64,000 nucleotides of DNA, from contig NC_020520.1 of the NCBI RefSeq assembly GCF_000348785.1, positions 2,666,001 to 2,730,000 of the forward strand. The letters run 5' to 3'. Below are positions 42,409 to 51,023 of this stretch, in pieces (position 1 is the first letter of the stretch; each line of letters begins with the position of its first letter). The stretch comes from Ilumatobacter coccineus YM16-304. Its GTDB lineage: Bacteria; Actinomycetota; Acidimicrobiia; Acidimicrobiales; Ilumatobacteraceae. The notes beneath the pieces are model-generated. The model saw only the letters and a program-made list of their open reading frames with translations, did no database searches and was not told where the DNA came from. A program made the translations under genes and the position numbers.

Positions 42409-44094
42409 GTGTATGACTTCGTGATCGTCGGCGGCGGCTCGGCCGGATGCGCCATGGCCAACCGGCTCAGCGCCGACCCCTCCAACCGAGTGCTCGTCAT
42501 CGAGGCGGGTCGACGCGACTGGAAGTGGGACGTCTTCATCCACATGCCGGCGGCGCTGGCCTTCCCGATCGGGAGTCGCTTCTACGACTGGAAGTACGAG
42601 AGCGAACCCGAGCCCTACATGAACGGTCGGCGGGTCTACCACGCTCGCGGCAAGGTGCTCGGCGGGTCGTCGAGCATCAACGGCATGATCTTCCAGCGGG
42701 GCAACCCGATGGACTACGACAAGTGGGGTGCCATCCCCGGCCTCGAACACTGGGACTGGGCGCACTGCCTGCCGTACTTCAAGCGGATGGAGAACTGTCT
42801 GGAGGGCCAGGAGTCCGACACGTCGGATCTGCGTGGCACCGACGGTCCGCTCACCCTCGAACGCGGACCGGCGACCAACCCACTGTTCGACGCGTGGCTG
42901 CGAGCGGGTGTCGAAGCCGGCTTCAACCGCACCGCCGACGTCAACGGCTATCGCCAGGAAGGCTTCGCAGCGTTCGACAAGAACGTGCTGCGCGGTCGTC
43001 GCCTGAGCGCCGCCCGGGCCTATCTCCACCCGGTGCTCGACCGACCGAACCTCGACCTGATGACGAGCACGCACGTCAATCGTGTGCTCTTCGACGGGAC
43101 CCGCGTGACCGGCGTCGAGATCGCGAAGGGCCGGTCGACCGAGACGATCCTCGCCGGTGAAGTGGTCCTGTGCGGCGGGGCGTTCAACAGTCCGCAGCTC
43201 CTGCAGTTGTCGGGCGTGGGCGACCCCGAGCATCTCGGCGGTCTGGGTATCGACGTCGTGGCCGACGTGCCGGGCGTCGGCGAGAACCTGCAAGATCACC
43301 TCGAGGTCTACATCCAGTACGAGTCGAAGCAGCCGGTCTCGATCCAACCTCACCTCGCTCACTGGAAGAAGCCGTGGATCGGGTTGCAATGGCTGTTCCG
43401 CAAGGGGCCGGGCGCCTCCAACCACTTCGAGGCCGGAGCGTTCGTCAAGAGCAATCCCGACGAGTCGTACCCGAACCTGATGTTCCACTTCCTCCCGATC
43501 GCAATCCGCTACGACGGGTCGTCGCCTCGCAAGCCCGACGGCTCCAACGCGAAGATCGAGCACGGCTACCAGGTGCACGTCGGGCCGATGTACTCCGACG
43601 CTCGCGGCACGGTGAAGATCACGTCGACCGACCCTCGCAAGCACCCCGCCGTGCAGTTCAACTACCTGTCGACCGAGCAGGACCGTCGTGAGTGGATCGA
43701 AGCGGTCCGCACCGCACGCAAAATCCTGACGCAGCCGGCGTTCGACGAGTTCAACGCCGGTGAGATCTCACCGGGCCCGGCGGTCGAGACCGACGAAGAG
43801 ATCATGGACTGGGTGGCCCGTGACTCCGAAACGGCGTTGCACCCGTCGTGCACGACGAAGATCGGCATCGACGACATGGCGGTGCTCGACCCCGAGACGA
43901 TGGGCGTGCGCGGCACGACGGGGCTGAGCGTCGTCGACGCCGGTTGCATGCCGAACGTGAGCAACGGCAACACCTACGCACCGACGATGATGATCGCCGA
44001 GAAGGCAGCGGATCTCATCCTCGGCAACACCCCACTCGCACCCGATCACTCCGAGGTCTACCGAGGCGATGTCACCGGTGGCGGCCGACGCTGA
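42409..44094 (+). CDS. betA: GMC-family oxidoreductase (choline dehydrogenase-like)
   Basis: A 561-residue FAD enzyme. The dinucleotide motif is [10 protein letters not shown] (~5-14), with [13 protein letters not shown] and [15 protein letters not shown] as the GMC signatures and [10 protein letters not shown] with the catalytic His. It is closest in motif pattern to choline dehydrogenase (BetA), which makes betaine aldehyde for osmoprotection, but other alcohol dehydrogenases of the family look alike and no betB or transporter is next to it. The start is a GTG with CAGACT ending six bases upstream. Confidence 0.9.
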
Positions 44095-44115
44095 GTCGGC
44101 GGCGCGACGACCACA

Positions 44116-44571
44116 TCAGAGACAGAGCAGGAAGCCCGGGGCGTCGGCTGCGATCCAGTCCGACCGGAGACCTGCACCGGTGACCGCTCGAACCTGCCAC
44201 TCGTACACGCCGAGTCCAGCACCGAGCAGCGGCGCGGCGCTGTCGTTGTAGCTGGTGCCGGGGGCCGTGACGGTCCAGGGTCCGCCCGAGACGGCGTTGG
44301 TGCCGGTGATGACCCGCCGCACCTCGTATGCGGTCACGCCAGCGGTCGTCGAGGGCTGCCAGGTGACGTTCGCACGGCACGTGAGCAGCGGGAGGACGTT
44401 GAGTCGGACGTCGGCGAACACGTCCGACGGCGGGAAGACCGCATGACTCGACGCCACGTTGGCGACGTTCGAAGTCGATTCGACGAACGCTGCCGAACCG
44501 GTGTCGAGCGTCCCGACGCCGAGGCACAGCGCGCCGACTGCGACCGCTCCGACCAGCCGCCGCAACCTCAT
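44116..44571 (-). CDS. Secreted protein with SipW-type signal and Fn3-like domain
   Basis: A 151-residue exported protein: basic start, hydrophobic stretch at ~6-26, then AAFVESTSNVANVASS. This segment matches AAFTASTSNDNNSASS of the TasA-like protein at the operon head in ten of sixteen positions. The rest (~57-150) resembles a fibronectin type III fold, with VTWQPSTTAGVTAYEVRR and YEWQVRAVTGAG. The ATG overlaps the TGA of the GGDEF gene. It is likely a second substrate of the SipW-like peptidase and part of an extracellular matrix or fibre. Confidence 0.75.
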   Translation of the reverse strand: MRLRRLVGAVAVGALCLGVGTLDTGSAAFVESTSNVANVASSHAVFPPSDVFADVRLNVLPLLTCRANVTWQPSTTAGVTAYEVRRVITGTNAVSGGPWTVTAPGTSYNDSAAPLLGAGLGVYEWQVRAVTGAGLRSDWIAADAPGFLLCL

Positions 44572-45980
44572 CGCACCGCGTCCGTCGTCGTGTCCGTCGC
44601 CGTGTCGTCGAGTTCGCTGGCAGCCGCAGCGAGGAACGCAGCGTTCTGTGCCCGCTTGTCGGCGTACATGTCCGACATCGCTCGCCGCAGTAGTTGCTCG
44701 CCCGACTCCGACCGGTCGGTTCCGGCGGCCGCGAGTCCGACGCCGCAGTAGATCCGCGTCGAGCCGGAGCGGCCGAGTGACACGTCTCCTGCGAGCGCCT
44801 CGGCGATGGTCGGCCGGTCGACGTCGAGGGTGTCGATGGCGACGACGAAGTCGCCGCCGACGAGACGTCCGACCGTTGCCGACGGGTCGATCTGCAGGAG
44901 TCGCTCGATCGTTGCCTCGATGAGGGCATCGCCGGCGTCGTGGCCGTGAAGATCGTTGAGCAGCTTCAGGTTGTCGAGGCTCACGATGCCGAGGGTGAGT
45001 TCGGCGGGGTCACGGCGGAGCCGGTCGTCGAGCCAGCTCAACGTCTCCGAGCGAGTGGAGAGATGACGCGAATGGCGCTCGGCCGTCTGCTCGGCGGGTG
45101 CTGCCCGACGGGTGGCACCCGCCTGCGCCCGGCTCATGGCGACGAGGAGTTCGAGCGCATCGACCGTGAGGTCGTCGAGCGCATGCTCTGCTCCTGTCAG
45201 CACGAGGCGACCGCCGGAGGCTTCGTCGAGGTCGAGGCGAACGATCGTCGCGTCGTCGTCCGCCGCCGTGTCGCTCTCGTCGGCTCGGTTGCCGTCGCTG
45301 TGTTCGATCGTCGCCGACACGCCGACGAACTTCTCGGCGGCGGCGACCAACAGGCGGTCGTGCTCGACCGGATCGGCGGCGAGCAGCTGCGCGCCCGCAT
45401 GCGTCACGAGTTCGAGCGCATGCGACCGGCGCTGTGCTCGTGCCCGTGTCGTTTCGGCGAGACGCAACCGCGCGGTGACGTGTTCGGCGAGACGAGCGGT
45501 GGGAACGGCGACGGCCATGAGCACGGCGGCGAGGACGAGTGGATCGTCGGCCTGACCGGGGGTGCCGTCCCAGGTGAGCGCGAGTTGTGCGAACAGCGCC
45601 AGTGCGGTGCTGATACCGGTTGCGATCGCGCCGAGCAGACCGTGCCGAATGCCGGCGAGCACGAGGGGAATTGCCAGTGCGAGCGATGTCGGGTCGCCCG
45701 GCTCCACGCCGTTCACGCCGAGTGCAGCGATCGTGACCACGAGGTCGAGGACGACCACGCCGATCGACAGCCGGACCGGATCGACACGGCGCCGCAGCCG
45801 CGGTTCGGCGAGCGCCGACACGCCGACGAGTACGGCGGCAGCGACGGCGACGCTCCCGAGTCGCTCGCCGCGGACGAGATGCACCGCGCCGAAGAGCGCG
45901 AGCGCGAGTGCGAGCACCACACGCATGTGTGAGAGCGATCGCACGACCGCGTCGTCGATCCGTTTCGTTCGTCGTGTCAT
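44568..45980 (-). CDS. Membrane protein with degenerate GGDEF domain
   Basis: A 470-residue protein with about five to six membrane helices (~18-175), then a GAF-like cytoplasmic region (~190-290) and a GGDEF-type domain (~315-445). The signature reads VGGDFVVAI, lacking the Glu of GGDEF, and DDRLRRDPAELTLGIVSLDNLKLLNDLHG retains the family pattern. It is probably inactive as a cyclase but may bind nucleotide. It sits between a SipW peptidase and a SipW-type substrate in a coupled operon, so it may sense or relay c-di-GMP for matrix secretion. Confidence 0.82.
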   Translation of the reverse strand: MTRRTKRIDDAVVRSLSHMRVVLALALALFGAVHLVRGERLGSVAVAAAVLVGVSALAEPRLRRRVDPVRLSIGVVVLDLVVTIAALGVNGVEPGDPTSLALAIPLVLAGIRHGLLGAIATGISTALALFAQLALTWDGTPGQADDPLVLAAVLMAVAVPTARLAEHVTARLRLAETTRARAQRRSHALELVTHAGAQLLAADPVEHDRLLVAAAEKFVGVSATIEHSDGNRADESDTAADDDATIVRLDLDEASGGRLVLTGAEHALDDLTVDALELLVAMSRAQAGATRRAAPAEQTAERHSRHLSTRSETLSWLDDRLRRDPAELTLGIVSLDNLKLLNDLHGHDAGDALIEATIERLLQIDPSATVGRLVGGDFVVAIDTLDVDRPTIAEALAGDVSLGRSGSTRIYCGVGLAAAGTDRSESGEQLLRRAMSDMYADKRAQNAAFLAAAASELDDTATDTTTDAVR

Positions 45981-46651
45981 GTGGTGTCACCTCCCACGAG
46001 GGTCAGGGCGGCCACGACCTCGGTCTGTTGCGGTTCGCCGAGGAGGCGGTTGTCGGCCGATTCGTCGTCGAGGTCGCCGGACCAGAGCCACGAGTGCGAG
46101 GGAGACGTCGATTCGGTGCCGTCCCACGGATCGTTCTCGCGTTCGCTGCTGAGACCTGCACCGCGAAGTGCGATGAGGAAGACCATCAACGTGGCCACCA
46201 CGAGTTCGTGGCGGCCGTCGAGCCACCAGAGGCGCACCATGCCGACCCAGGGCACGACCACACGGCCGGCACCGAAGAGTTCGGAGGCGGTGACCGGAGA
46301 GCTGTCGTTGCTCTGGTTGGCGTCGCCGCGGGTGACGAGTGTGCCGTCGGGGTTGACGTCGACGACCCGGTGGATGACCGACACGTCGTTGGAGTCGAAC
46401 ACCACCACGGTGCCCACTCCGACCTCGTCGAGGTCCTGCTCGCTGTACAGCACGGTGTCGCCGCGCTGGAGCGCGGGTTCCATCGACTCCGACGCAACGA
46501 CGGTCGAATGCCACCTCGGAACGACCATCGCCACCATCGCCAACACGGCGAGGGTGAGCGCGACAGTGCTCAAGAAGAGTCCGGTGAGCCCGAAACCGAA
46601 CCGGAACGATCGCTGGAGGCGGGGCCAGTCGATCGCTCCGGTTCGGGTCAT
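45977..46651 (-). CDS. sipW: SipW-like signal peptidase I (ER type)
   Basis: A 224-residue membrane serine peptidase. N-terminal helix ~21-43; catalytic Ser56 in SESMEPAL; His94 in SVIHRVVD replaces the Lys of ordinary bacterial signal peptidases, which marks the ER/SipW type. GDANQSND (109-116) carries the conserved Asp. A second helix follows near residue 145, and the C-terminus is acidic. The start at 46651 leaves eight bases after the TasA-like stop and has GAAG upstream; a longer frame to 46690 overlaps that gene. SipW enzymes process biofilm matrix proteins such as TasA. Confidence 0.88.
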   Translation of the reverse strand: MTRTGAIDWPRLQRSFRFGFGLTGLFLSTVALTLAVLAMVAMVVPRWHSTVVASESMEPALQRGDTVLYSEQDLDEVGVGTVVVFDSNDVSVIHRVVDVNPDGTLVTRGDANQSNDSSPVTASELFGAGRVVVPWVGMVRLWWLDGRHELVVATLMVFLIALRGAGLSSERENDPWDGTESTSPSHSWLWSGDLDDESADNRLLGEPQQTEVVAALTLVGGDTT

Positions 46652-46659
46652 CGGGTTCT

Positions 46660-47361
46660 TCAGCTCTGGGTCTCCCACACGAAGTTCCATGTGGCGTCCT
46701 TGGCGGCGGCTTCCGGATCGTCTTGGACGGCGATCGTGATGCGGAAGGTGTAGACGCCGTCGCTGCCGGGCATCGAGCTGAGGTTGTCAGCGTGAGTTGC
46801 CGGGAAGTCGGCGAGGGTGCCGTTGTAGATGTTGTCGTTGTTCGCGTTCGGCAGCGCCTCGGGCGGATCCTGCGCGTTCATGTAGGCGCAGTCGTGCAGT
46901 TGGTTGCCCGGGGTCTCCGTGAAGGCGACCGGGTCGCCGGGAGTCGCGAGGCGGTCGACCCGGACGTTCAGGTAGTCGGCGAGCGTGTCGGCGGCGTCGA
47001 TGCCCGTGACGTACATCATCACGTCGCCCGAGGTGAAGTCACCGTCGTATTGCACGCGGATGCACTGCTCGACCGGGGTCGCCGGGGTCAGGTCGGCGGC
47101 ATTGCCGCTCGCCAAGGGGTTGAGCGGGTCGACCGCGGTCGTGAAGAGCGCGAAGCCCGCGTCGTTGTCGGTCAGCGTGATGCCGGCCGCCGAGCTCGCC
47201 GAGTTGTTGTCGTTGCTCGTCGAGGCCGTGAAGGCTGCTCGAGACACCGACAGAACGAGGAACAGCACCAGCAGCAGGGCGGTACCCACCGCTGCGATCC
47301 GTCCGGTTGTTGCATGCAGACTCGATCGCTCCGTCGGGCCGCCCGCCATTGATTGATTCAT
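46660..47361 (-). CDS. TasA/CalY-like secreted matrix protein
   Basis: A 233-residue exported protein. Basic N-terminus, hydrophobic helix ~24-42 (AAVGTALLLVLFLVLSVS), then RAAFTASTSNDNNSASSAAG, the kind of N-terminus processed by SipW. The mature domain holds ITLTDNDAGFALF and conserved CIRVQY and DCAYMN cysteines, similar in style to TasA/camelysin-like fibre proteins. Assignment to this family is by layout and neighbours, not by clear sequence identity. AGGAG lies five bases before the ATG at 47361. It leads the operon. Confidence 0.78.
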   Translation of the reverse strand: MNQSMAGGPTERSSLHATTGRIAAVGTALLLVLFLVLSVSRAAFTASTSNDNNSASSAAGITLTDNDAGFALFTTAVDPLNPLASGNAADLTPATPVEQCIRVQYDGDFTSGDVMMYVTGIDAADTLADYLNVRVDRLATPGDPVAFTETPGNQLHDCAYMNAQDPPEALPNANNDNIYNGTLADFPATHADNLSSMPGSDGVYTFRITIAVQDDPEAAAKDATWNFVWETQS

Positions 47362-47380
47362 CACATCTCCTGTGCGTCAC

Positions 47381-47400
47381 GACATGTCGGTCGACATGTC
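47381..47400. promoter_or_regulatory. Perfect 20-bp operator-like palindrome before the TasA-SipW operon
   Basis: GACATGTCGGTCGACATGTC: two 9-base arms, GACATGTCG and CGACATGTC, with a GT centre, 20 bases upstream of the start codon. The position fits a repressor site in the promoter or leader. The likely binder is not encoded next to it. Confidence 0.65.
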
Positions 47401-47530
47401 CGTGCTGCGTCCATCGGGAGAGATGTGACACACCTTGAGAAGATTTGACGATGTCGGGAAGAAGCGCGCCCACGCTGAGCAGGGGTTGAACGCCGAGCGT
47501 GCGTTTTGTCGGGGGTAGTGTCGGACCGCG

Positions 47531-47956
47531 TCAGTCGCTCAGCCGGTCGACGGCGTACGCCGTCACGCGCGCTCCGAGCAGCAGTTTCGACGACGCTGCG
47601 TCGCTCAGATCGTCGTCGGCGGAGCGTCGCGGGTCGATGTCGCCGCCGGCCACGTACACGTCGACGCCGTGTGCGGTCGCCGCGTCGCGAAACGCCTCGC
47701 CGTCGTGGACGTCGGTCGCAAAGGCGACGTCGCCGAGATGCAGGTCGTACGCGAACGCATCGACCACGAGCGCGACGGCTGGTCGCGCCTCGGACAGTTC
47801 GTGTGGAAACGACGGCGACGACGCGAACCAGTTCTTCGCTGCGCCGAAGCTCAGCGCCTCGTCATCGGCGGTCTGGAATGCCTCGGCGGGGATGATCAGG
47901 CGTGCCCGGCCGTCGACGACCGAGGTGCGCGACCCCGGACGTCGACGGCGAGCCAT
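47531..47956 (-). CDS. Hypothetical protein downstream of aconitase
   Basis: A 141-residue soluble protein with no signal or domain I recognise. It begins MARRRRPGSRTSVVDGRARL and has the segments VALVVDAFAYDLHLGDVAFATD and GVDVYVAGGDIDP, suggestive of an alpha/beta fold. It begins three bases after the aconitase stop on the same strand and is probably co-transcribed with it. No more can be said from sequence. Confidence 0.7.
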   Translation of the reverse strand: MARRRRPGSRTSVVDGRARLIIPAEAFQTADDEALSFGAAKNWFASSPSFPHELSEARPAVALVVDAFAYDLHLGDVAFATDVHDGEAFRDAATAHGVDVYVAGGDIDPRRSADDDLSDAASSKLLLGARVTAYAVDRLSD

Positions 47957-47959
47957 CGA

Positions 47960-50236
47960 TCAGTTGGCCGACTTCTGGCGGATGATGTTGAGCGCCGAGC
48001 CCGCCTCGAACCATTCGACCTGTTCGGGGCTGAACGTGTGCTTGGCCTCGAAGTCGATCGTGGTGCCGCCGGGCTTGACGATCTGGCACTTCACGTTCTC
48101 TCCGGGCACCGGCGGCAGGGTGAGCACGTTGATGCGATCGTCTTCGTCGATCTTGTCGTAGTCGGCCGCGTCGGCGAACGTGAGCGGGACCATGCCCTGC
48201 TTCTTGAGGTTGGTCTCGTGGATGCGAGCGAAGCTGCGGGCGATCGCCACGAGCCCGAGGCGGAAGCGGGGCTCCATCGCGGCGTGCTCGCGGCTCGAAC
48301 CCTCACCCATGTTCTCGTCACCGATGACGACCCACGGCTGGCCTGCCTCGTGGTACTCCTTGGCGATCTCGGGGAAGGTCTGGGTCTCACCCGTGAGCTG
48401 GTTCTTGCCGTACCCGACCTCGTAGCCGGAGCCATCACCCTTCGAGAAGGCGTTGACCGCTCCGAGGTAGAGGTTGCCCGAGATGTTCTCGAGGTGACCG
48501 CGGAACTTCAGCCAGGGGCCGGCCATCGAGATGTGGTCGGTGGTGAACTTGCCCTGTGCCTTCACCAGCACCGGGAGGCCGTTGTAGGCGTCGCGCGGTG
48601 CGGGCTCGAACGGCTCGAGGAGCTGCAGGCGGTCGCTCGTGGGGCTGACCTGCACCTCGACGGTGCTGCCGTCGGCCGGGGGAGCGGTGAAGGTGTCTTC
48701 GCCCGGGTCGTAGCCGGCGTCGGGGAGGATCTGGCCGACCGGTGCGTCGAGGCTGACCTCGGTGCCGTCGGGCGCCGTGATCGTGTCGGTGGTCGGGTCG
48801 AAGTCGAGCCGGCCGGACAGTGCGATGGCCATGACCGTGTCGGGCGAGGTGACGAACGCGAGGGTGTTGGCCGAGCCGTCGTTGCGCTTGGGGAAGTTGC
48901 GGTTGTACGAGGTGACGATCGTGTTGATCTGCCCGGTGACCGCTTCGGGGCGGCTCCACTGACCGATGCACGGGCCGCACGCGTTGGCGAGCACGGTCGC
49001 ACCGATCGCTTCGAGGTCGGCGAGGAGGCCGTCTCGTTCGATCGTGGCACGGGTCTGTTCGGAACCGGGGGTGATCATCAGGTCGATCTTCGAGGTGAGG
49101 CCCTTCGCTGCGGCCTGACGCGCGATCGATGCAGCGCGGGTGATGTCTTCGTACGACGAGTTGGTGCACGAACCGATGAGCGCGGCCGACGGCACGAGCG
49201 GCCAGTCGTTGGCGCGAGCGGCTTCGCCGACGCCGGCTCCGACCTTGTGCGCGAGGTCGGGGGTGTGCGGGCCGTTGATCAGCGGTTTGAGTTCGTCGAG
49301 ATCGATCTCGATGATCTGGTCGTACATGGCGCCGTCGTCGGGGCGCAGGTGATCGGCGACCTTGTCGGCGGCGTCGGCGATGGCCTCACGGCCGGTGGCC
49401 TTGAGGTACTCGCTCATGTTGGTGTCGTAGCCGAACAGCGAGGTGGTGGCGCCGATCTCGGCACCCATGTTGCAGATCGTGCCCTTGCCGGTGGCCGAGA
49501 TCGAGTCGGCGCCGGGGCCGTAGTACTCGACGATGGCGCCGGTGCCGCCCTTGACGGTGAGCTGGCGGGCGACTTCGAGGATGACGTCTTTCGGAGCGCT
49601 CCAGTCGGAGAGTGTGCCGGTGAGCTTGACGCCGATGACCTTGGGCCACTTGACGTTCCAGGCGAAGCCGGTCATGACGTCGACGGCGTCGGCGCCGCCG
49701 ACACCGATGGCGACCATGCCGAGACCGCCGGCGTTGGGCGTGTGGCTGTCGGTGCCGATCATCATGCCGCCCGGGAACGCGTAGTTCTCCAGGACGACCT
49801 GGTGGATGATGCCCGAGCCCGGGCCCCAGAAGCCGATGCCGTACTTGGCCGACACGCTGCGCAGGAAGTCGTAGACCTCCTTGTTGGTGTCGACGGCGAC
49901 GCCGAGGTCGATCTGTGCGCCGACCTTGGCCTGGATGAGGTGGTCGCAGTGCACGGTCGACGGCACGGCGGCTTCGTCGAGCCCGGCGGTCATGAACTGC
50001 AGGAGCGCCATCTGCGCGGTGGCGTCTTGCATGGCGACGCGGTCGGGGTGGAAGTCGGCGTAGCTCTCGCCGCGTTCGAGCGATTGGTTCTCGGGGTCGC
50101 TCAGATGGTTGACGAGGATCTTCTCGGTGAGGGTGAGCGGACGCTGGAGACGGTCACGGGCGATCTGGACGTTGCCCGGGAGGTTCGCGTAGACGGCGTC
50201 GACGAGTTCGATGGGGGTGCTGGCGCTGACTGGCAT
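47960..50236 (-). CDS. acnA: Aconitate hydratase, mitochondrial-type
   Basis: A 758-residue 4Fe-4S enzyme interconverting citrate and isocitrate. The cluster cysteines lie in [11 protein letters not shown] and [31 protein letters not shown] and [19 protein letters not shown] are patterns of the eukaryote mitochondrial group rather than of the usual 890-residue bacterial AcnA. The start is ATG 50236, positioned by a TATAGT box seven bases upstream; an extra 12 residues upstream run through the promoter. It is divergent from a GntR regulator, a likely controller. Confidence 0.94.
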
Positions 50237-50241
50237 GTAGA

Positions 50242-50259
50242 CAACTATAATACAAGTTG
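50242..50259. promoter_or_regulatory. Promoter and inverted repeat between acnA and the GntR gene
   Basis: CAACT (50242-50246) and AGTTG (50255-50259) form an inverted repeat around an AT-rich centre. The minus-strand hexamer TATAGT (50244-50249) lies inside and ends seven bases before the acnA ATG. A protein bound to the repeat would block or alter the acnA promoter. Confidence 0.6.
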
Positions 50260-50297
50260 CAGCCATCTTCAAGCCAGCGTGCTAGGAAGGACAGCGA

Positions 50298-51023
50298 ATG
50301 AGACGAATCCGATACAAGGATATCGCTGACGAGCTTCGTCAGCGGTTCCGCGATGCTCCGGTCGGCTCCGTGCTGCCGTCGGAGTCCGACATGTCGGCGG
50401 AGTTCGAGGTCTCGCGTGTCACGATCCGTCGAGCGCTCGAACTCGTGCGCGAAGACGGCCTCATCGCTGCCCGCCAAGGCTTCGGCTGGTATGTCGCCGG
50501 CGAACCGGTCCGGCAGTCGCTCGAGTCGCTCGGCACGATCGAGAGTCAGGTCGAGGGCGTCGGCAAGATCTCCGAACGCAAGGTCGAAGAGTTCGCATTC
50601 GTCCAGCCGCCCGCCCGAGTACGCGCGCTGCTGCAGACCGATCAGGTGCTGCGCGTCAAGCGCGTCAACCTGGCCGACGGCGAGCCGTTCGCGGTGGTGA
50701 CCGTGTGGTGCCCGGCCGACCTGGGCGCCAACCTGTCTCGTCGCGACGTCGAGCAGTTTCCGTTCTACGAACTCATCGACGTCGAACTGCGCGGCGCGAC
50801 CCAGACCATCGGTGCCGACGCCGCCGACGCGGCGATCTCGAAACTGCTCAACATCCCCGTCGGTGCGCCGCTGCTGCGGTGCCAGCGGGTCACGACCGAT
50901 CGGGAAGGTCATCCGGTGCTGGTGAGCGAGCACCTGTTCTCGGCGCATCGCACCGAGTTCGTCGTCGAACTCCCACAGGCCGGGCCGAGCCTCACGCCGA
51001 GCGGGCTCCGGCTCGTCGACTGA
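50298..51023 (+). CDS. GntR-family regulator, HutC/UTRA type
   Basis: A 241-residue regulator. N-terminal winged helix (~5-70) with YKDIADELRQRF, SESDMSAEFEVSRVTIRRALE and the wing GLIAARQGFGWYV. The UTRA ligand domain (~85-235) follows, ending VLVSEHLFSAHRTEFVVEL. AGGAAGGA precedes the ATG at a good distance, so this gene is translated conventionally. Divergence from acnA with an inverted repeat between suggests it controls aconitase, with a citrate-like or other metabolite as effector. Effector unknown. Confidence 0.92.
   Translation: MRRIRYKDIADELRQRFRDAPVGSVLPSESDMSAEFEVSRVTIRRALELVREDGLIAARQGFGWYVAGEPVRQSLESLGTIESQVEGVGKISERKVEEFAFVQPPARVRALLQTDQVLRVKRVNLADGEPFAVVTVWCPADLGANLSRRDVEQFPFYELIDVELRGATQTIGADAADAAISKLLNIPVGAPLLRCQRVTTDREGHPVLVSEHLFSAHRTEFVVELPQAGPSLTPSGLRLVD

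Follow-up and report, generated by a model that had tools for sequence, protein, structure and literature searches.

The operon and its exported proteins

The window examined here, a 64,000-nucleotide stretch of the genome of Ilumatobacter coccineus YM16-304 (NC_020520.1, positions 2,666,001 to 2,730,000), carries a minus-strand operon in which a SipW-type signal peptidase (P0002) is followed directly by a membrane protein with a degenerate GGDEF domain (P0003). A gene for an exported protein stands on either side, P0001 first and P0004 last (Table 1). A preliminary description of this DNA had given the four open reading frames (ORFs), their strand, their order and spacings of 8, -4 and -4 bases, and all were confirmed from the window coordinates: 8 bases lie between the P0001 stop at 46660 and the P0002 start at 46651, and 4-base overlaps join P0002 to P0003 (45977-45980) and P0003 to P0004 (44568-44571).

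Table 1. Features of the operon, in window coordinates (aa, amino acids; TM, transmembrane; ER, endoplasmic reticulum)
Feature	Position	Strand	Details
P0001, TasA-like exported protein	46660..47361	minus	233 aa from ATG (234 from GTG 47364)
P0002, SipW-type (ER-type, S26B) signal peptidase	45977..46651	minus	224 aa, Ser56/His94, two hydrophobic TM segments
P0003, multi-TM, GAF-like, degenerate GGDEF protein	44568..45980	minus	470 aa, VGGDF, without EAL
P0004, second exported protein with SipW motif	44116..44571	minus	151 aa, AAFVESTSNVANVASS, then possible Fn3-like domain
Intergenic stretch upstream of operon	47365..47530	minus	gap between genes; predicted promoter site

Both exported proteins carry AAFxxSTSNxxNxASS around the likely cleavage site, as the preliminary description had said. 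The region reads AAFTASTSNDNNSASS in P0001 and AAFVESTSNVANVASS in P0004; P0001, the likely fibre subunit, has a signal peptide and then RAAFTASTSNDNNSASS. We built a motif profile (A6) from 11 aligned SipW-linked AAF proteins, P0001 and P0004 among them; five of the 16 exported proteins inspected have no AAF (L067_12027, L098_6764 and three of L106; G and L numbers are our handles for genomes and loci) and were excluded. Because those five were left out, the invariant AAF of the profile is partly a selection effect, and proteins with looser sites are missed in a genome scan. When the 4.83-Mb genome was scanned, P0004 (E 9.3e-13) and P0001 (4.0e-12), both rows of the profile, were followed by a next match at 0.12. 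Exactly two places scored below 1e-10, both in this operon, with a profile that would miss looser variants, and no second P0002 match was found elsewhere in the genome. As far as these scans reach, we conclude that the genome has one such peptidase and two motif proteins in one operon, to which the motif is confined. This agrees with the earlier suggestion of two exported substrates for one dedicated peptidase. The expectation that the motif would hold up in alignments was borne out in part: it is kept in the 11 AAF proteins, but the exported proteins of the fused operons described below show less strict sites (SARF or DAAL, for example).

P0001 matches no sequence family in Pfam or NCBIfam, and the TasA family NF046066 gave no match up to E 1; a relative in G040 matches it at 1.5e-7, below the cut-off. 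An AlphaFold2 model (14-row alignment) reached a predicted local distance difference test score (pLDDT) of 68.9. Its top PDB match in Foldseek was Bacillus subtilis TasA 5of1 (E 5.8e-4, the sole match below 0.001; template modelling scores 0.32/0.35). In the VIA comparison, where top scores of 7 to 8 are nothing unusual, Z was 8.7 for 5of2 (127 residues, 2.9 Å), 8.4 for 5of1 and 6.9 for the TasA fibre 8aur, and 6.7 for the best unrelated row. Judging from this model, we hold with moderate confidence that P0001 has the TasA jelly-roll fold, and TasA is the best structural match for the gene first described as TasA-like. A PDB sequence search with the TasA-like alignment A4 gave no match up to E 1; PF12389 (camelysin-like) weakly matches 6 of its 14 members (best E 0.002), P0001 not being one of them. 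Two cysteines, C100 and C158 of the 233-aa P0001, are invariant in the 14 proteins of A4, a possible disulfide.

Less can be said of P0004. Its export with the SipW motif stands, but the Fn3-like label given to it at first is weak (PF00041 E = 0.15, below the cut-off). Beyond the motif, phmmer among the collected loci gave nothing convincing (best non-self E 0.026), and no TapA model was matched. BLASTP (best E 2.2) did not bear out a likeness to an RCC1-repeat protein of G333 that had been noticed by eye.

What the shared stretch might do is suggested by TasA itself. The papers concerned report that TasA has a Phe at P2' of its cleavage site (PMC10269814), that the residues after this site form the donor strand linking subunits, and that SipW cleaves both TasA and TapA, the N terminus of TapA resembling the TasA donor strand (PMC9674648). 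For these reasons the motif is most plausibly a shared cleavage site and donor strand, and P0004 a minor component resembling TapA. In P0001, the one feature consistent with polymerisation by donor strand is the position of the motif.

The signal peptidase and its GGDEF partner across genomes

P0002 passes the NCBIfam model for archaeal/ER-type signal peptidases (TIGR02228, 82.3 bits, cut-off 51.85) and stays below the Bacillus SipW equivalog NF046067 (39.9 bits against a cut-off of 190). The Ser56/His94 dyad noted earlier is invariant in a six-row SipW alignment, so that P0002 has, at the sequence level, the Ser-His pair that S26B enzymes carry instead of Ser-Lys. Against the PDB, a profile of P0002 and five relatives (A2) matched human SEC11C at 2.1e-18 and SEC11A at 1.2e-17, and bacterial signal peptidase (SPase) IB at 0.0098. 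By profile comparison, then, P0002 appears closer to SEC11 than to the bacterial LepB-type enzymes. With TIGR02228 passed and TasA as the top structural match of P0001, the identity of the operon as TasA-like/SipW-type stands.

P0002 matched 19 of 60 relatives, and a Pfam scan of ten ORFs around the matches found GGDEF and EAL in ORFs with a SipW domain at their start. A profile of four such fusions (A3) was scanned against relatives' contigs. Among the best 80 of 507 relatives, 12 fusions (L098-L109), which join SipW to the multi-TM/GAF part, match A3 over nearly all 540 residues; four are from genomes of A3 rows and eight are new, and the assemblies comprise 11 from Acidimicrobiia groups and one from the Actinomycetes. 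The same ORF holds GGDEF in 11 of the 12 and a full EAL in nine (contig ends truncate L099, L102 and L105). All 12 keep the Ser and His of the peptidase without exception (alignment A5) and share a conserved linker. Read by eye, the GGDEF motifs are intact in the fusions aligned, and so are the EAL motifs save in G645 and the cut L102. In nine of the 12 loci a small exported gene overlaps the start of the fusion by 4 bases (seven of these nine products were aligned with P0001), and several loci then have further exported genes. In seven of the 12, the fused peptidase is followed 0.9-1.3 kb downstream by a second SipW-type peptidase of a separate group, which gives these operons two peptidases each.

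Unfused pairs occur as well. G333 has the order TasA-like, SipW, GGDEF as in the window, without EAL, and G293, from another order, has TasA-like, SipW and a membrane GGDEF gene; G511 shows SipW followed by GGDEF at a contig end. SipW and GGDEF-EAL are split in G540 and G040; in G645 a run of N between the two parts makes fused and split indistinguishable. G935, from another class, has a divergent TasA-like gene and a SipW-like gene, then TM-GAF-GGDEF-EAL. Its SipW-like protein (L308 12197-12730) has lost the Ser, His and GDAN motifs, and the adjoining GGDEF-EAL reads intact. To judge by motifs, G935, with a dead peptidase and an intact GGDEF-EAL, mirrors the window, with a live peptidase, a dead GGDEF and no EAL. 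Fused or adjacent, the pair was found in 21 distinct assemblies: L098-L109, G631, G040, G540, G645, G333, G511, G293, G935 and the window (L105 and G631, cut before the GGDEF, are included). This count treats a G genome and a named contig of equal length as one assembly. The window, G040, G051, G058, G001 and G003 match profiles A1 and A2 by construction, since they supply rows to them.

In a sample of 397 genomes of the order, the TM-GAF profile matched 52 and the SipW profile 133; both lay within 1 kb in 12 genomes, and G511 makes 13 (four profile rows, nine not). The ten genomes scoring best for TM-GAF, four of them profile rows, were SipW-adjacent without exception. By our own rough arithmetic, from 28 GGDEF matches in 4.83 Mb, fewer than one adjacent same-strand GGDEF would be expected in 133 SipW genomes; 13 were seen, nine of them non-profile. 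In a phylum sample of 396 genomes, no full-length fusion outside the class was among the matches listed. On these comparisons, we conclude that the coupling of SipW to GGDEF is no local accident: it is seen again in further families of the order and beyond it, in another order and another class. The gene order sought in related genomes was thus present in G333 and G293, with the contig-end pair of G511 and fusions elsewhere. As for conservation, recurrence in G333 and G293 stands, but close relatives mostly lack the operon. A genus-wide conserved operon was rejected: P0002 matches just two of nine other genus genomes, several of which are incomplete. Both of the two hold the fused form.

Another account would be co-expression only, in which the matrix operon includes a GGDEF protein that adjusts cyclic di-GMP (c-di-GMP) for the biofilm in general and makes no contact with the peptidase. 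Other GGDEF genes do lie unfused within 1.5 kb of stand-alone SipW genes (L076, L078, L081, L088), as this account would have it. It fits poorly with a one-polypeptide fusion whose linker is conserved in 12 assemblies, and a cyclase that is dead could tune nothing. We regard it as very unlikely.

P0003 passes PF00990 (40.4 bits, cut-off 23.8) and is the second weakest by score of the 28 GGDEF matches in the host genome (4,830,181 bases, one contig). Its signature is VGGDF and its metal-Asp site IVSLD, where the aligned SipW-linked relatives keep GGDEF and the Asp; the degeneracy reported earlier is therefore real. It is also peculiar to the window: G333, G511 and G293 have intact signatures. 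P0003 lacks the combination of GG(D/E)EF and metal Asp expected of an active diguanylate cyclase. It has no EAL match in a Pfam scan, and no RxxD inhibitory site that might back the earlier suggestion that it may sense c-di-GMP. LapD-type receptors bind c-di-GMP through a degenerate EAL domain, and P0003, without an EAL match, is not of that type.

The rest of P0003 resembles the partner domain of the fusions. Its first 300 aa matched a TM-GAF profile of the 12 fusions, window excluded, at E 9.4e-9 (best of 50 shuffles, 0.27), and hhalign gave 94.7% and 6.1e-8 for the same region. These scores point to homology between the TM-GAF part of P0003 and the partner domain. Hydropathy assigned 5 TM segments to P0003, 2 to P0002 and 8, 4 and 7 to three fusions, which we read, tentatively, as about six for the partner. 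When the first 540 residues of one fusion were modelled (pLDDT 79; predicted template modelling score 0.44), the last part proved GAF-like (Z 13.9, 149 residues, 2.7 Å), and the Foldseek list for the model included SEC11C at E 2.4e-5.

Could P0003 be a decaying remnant, an ancestral cyclase that lost its role and survives by its position between two needed genes? It has lost several catalytic motifs and the EAL, and its branch is very long. Yet its frame is open over 470 codons with coding-type codon GC, it keeps 4-base overlaps on both sides, and its TM and GAF parts are still recognisable. We find this explanation improbable.

The GGDEF tree had 33 rows, with 11 duplicate rows dropped and P0003 added. 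A 100/100 clade unites 12 rows, 11 of them fused and the other G645; outside it the split pairs G540 and G040 branch off in succession (82/81 and 89/94; neither starred). This placement points to a probable single origin of the fusion from two neighbouring genes. The SipW tree had 139 rows; in it, 13 fused rows stand on one side of a branch (96) together with L110, cut by a contig end, and G645; the second peptidases and two further rows form a separate clade (97). Neither G333 nor the G293+G511 pair groups with the fused rows. Given the long branches, the pairing may have arisen once or several times.

Other SipW-type arrangements also occur. SipW-type peptidases are fused to FG-GAP repeats (L068 9650-12451), laminin-G (L071 8429-9934) and DUF2341 plus laminin-G (L090 625-4143); a repeat protein that to the eye looks RCC1-like and has a SipW-type N terminus is divergent from the G333 operon (L248 9345-11915); and a Ruminococcus flavefaciens contig (L167) has EAL ORFs at distances of 0.9 and 2.7 kb from SipW-like genes. 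Around the window operon itself, the downstream neighbour is a GMC oxidoreductase on the opposite strand. Upstream, a 141-aa ORF at 47531-47956 (minus strand), which has no Pfam or NCBIfam match, separates the operon from an ORF named aconitase-like from its own sequence. Riboswitch control found no support: at gathering scores, Rfam matched nothing in window positions 43000-50500 or in nine loci.

Proposed coupling of fibre export to c-di-GMP

We propose that export of TasA-type fibres and the state of c-di-GMP are coupled through a SipW/GGDEF membrane unit in which P0003 would be a non-catalytic regulatory partner; we give this reading a probability of roughly 0.6. The operon would make TasA-type surface fibres with its dedicated ER-type signal peptidase. 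SipW would remove the signal peptides of P0001, the fibre subunit, and of P0004, the minor TapA-like component, and the AAFxxSTSNxxNxASS stretch would become the new N terminus and the donor strand, as in TasA. Since the new N terminus is the donor strand in TasA, cleavage would license assembly. The partner (multi-TM, GAF-like and GGDEF, often with EAL in relatives) would share the membrane with SipW, to which it is fused in relatives and translationally coupled in the window, and would tie peptidase activity or substrate engagement to c-di-GMP. The topology can fit: the two SipW TM segments and an even number more would place GAF-GGDEF-EAL in the cytoplasm with the peptidase facing out.

With the cyclase site destroyed and the EAL missing, P0003 most likely serves as a regulatory subunit without catalysis of its own, by a logic like that of LapD. 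Retention of a dead cyclase in so tight an operon speaks for regulation, and the dead peptidase kept beside a live cyclase in G935 suggests that contact matters, not catalysis alone. The sequences themselves show how the genes are ordered, that relatives fuse them, which motifs are lost and that the cleavage motif is confined to this operon; we infer from them that fibres form, that P0002 and P0003 touch in the window, that cleavage is controlled, and which way the coupling runs.

Coupling could also run from outside in. The SipW domain would then be mainly a sensor, and engagement of TasA-type precursor or the status of the fibre would change the GAF-GGDEF-EAL output, adjusting c-di-GMP to the matrix; in the window that output would be lost, and P0003 would partner another signalling protein. 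G935, with an intact GGDEF-EAL next to a SipW-like protein without Ser, His and GDAN, beside a TasA-like gene, agrees with this, as do the preserved cyclase motifs of the fusions, along with most of their EAL motifs. However, the Ser and His of the peptidase are kept in 12 of 12 fusions, as expected if cleavage matters, and the window GGDEF, by its motifs, cannot make c-di-GMP. We think outside-in sensing unlikely, and slightly favour the inside-out direction for the proposed coupling.

Several results weigh against the coupling we propose. P0001 matches no TasA family model, its pLDDT is middling and its best TasA Z is modest on the VIA scale. The peptidase part of the fusions falls under the Pfam cut-off or goes unmatched (L106, the sole fusion scanned with NCBIfam, passes TIGR02228 at 71.5 against 51.85), and c-di-GMP binding by the degenerate P0003 GGDEF is without sequence support. 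The distribution is patchy: seven of the nine other genus genomes have no P0002 match, and 120 of the 133 SipW-bearing genomes have no adjacent TM-GAF-GGDEF among the matches listed and loci examined. In the GGDEF tree the linked GGDEFs fell on one side of a branch in 0 of 200 bootstrap trees, and G040, sister of the fused rows there, is not so placed in the SipW tree. P0002 and P0003, on a long branch, are placed with the fused rows in neither tree; the window pairing could hence be an independent recruitment.

More broadly, there may be a class of transmembrane signalling enzymes, each a single machine built of a signal peptidase domain and a module for c-di-GMP turnover (multi-TM, GAF, GGDEF, EAL), in which the export and assembly of TasA-type fibres are coupled directly to the second messenger in either direction. 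Either half could decay to a binding-only part, as the dead cyclase of the window and the dead peptidase of G935 would illustrate. We put such a class at about even odds.

Comparison with known systems

Signal peptidases are usually regarded as housekeeping enzymes that cut Sec-delivered proteins, and c-di-GMP is the main biofilm second messenger. Here a signal peptidase is linked to domains for c-di-GMP synthesis and breakdown, and in relatives a single polypeptide holds both. If the coupling is true, fibre export would be gated post-translationally by c-di-GMP, or c-di-GMP set by export, with no transcription between, and the GGDEF/EAL field would gain a new kind of extracytoplasmic partner. 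The natural half-dead variants would serve as built-in controls in a defined protein set, which makes direct testing possible. The preliminary description knew of no operon of this kind, and a literature search of titles and abstract beginnings among the papers listed likewise found no SipW-GGDEF fusion or operon, and nothing for signal peptidase, GGDEF and Acidimicrobi- together.

Pyrobaculum archaeal bundling pili (7ueg) are among the structural matches of P0001 (Z 5.8, rank 27), amid unrelated rows; we know of no c-di-GMP module in these pili or in camelysin-like proteins.

The B. subtilis tapA-sipW-tasA operon, as described in PMC9674648 and PMC4551309, resembles the window in several ways. 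In both, an ER-type peptidase stands beside its own substrates, with a TasA-fold subunit, an aromatic residue two positions past the cleavage site and a second exported protein with the same N-terminal stretch. Unlike the operon of the window, that of B. subtilis has three genes and no GGDEF protein among them; P0004, for its part, matches no TapA model, and P0002 reaches 39.9 of the 190 bits of the SipW equivalog. SipW has been called bifunctional (Terra et al. 2012, cited in PMC4551309); a passage of PMC5422440 mentions SipW only in passing.

The second comparison is with LapD. That system likewise ties a degenerate membrane protein of the GGDEF/EAL family to an extracytoplasmic protease acting on a biofilm protein. 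No periplasmic LapD-type domain was noted here, and no search was aimed at one. PMC3032545 and PMC3032553 concern LapD-LapG-LapA, c-di-GMP control of the proteolysis of a surface adhesin. Unlike Lap, the protease here is an S26 signal peptidase, not LapG, and either shares a polypeptide with the c-di-GMP module or is translated together with it, and the cleavage we propose would mature its substrate rather than release it.

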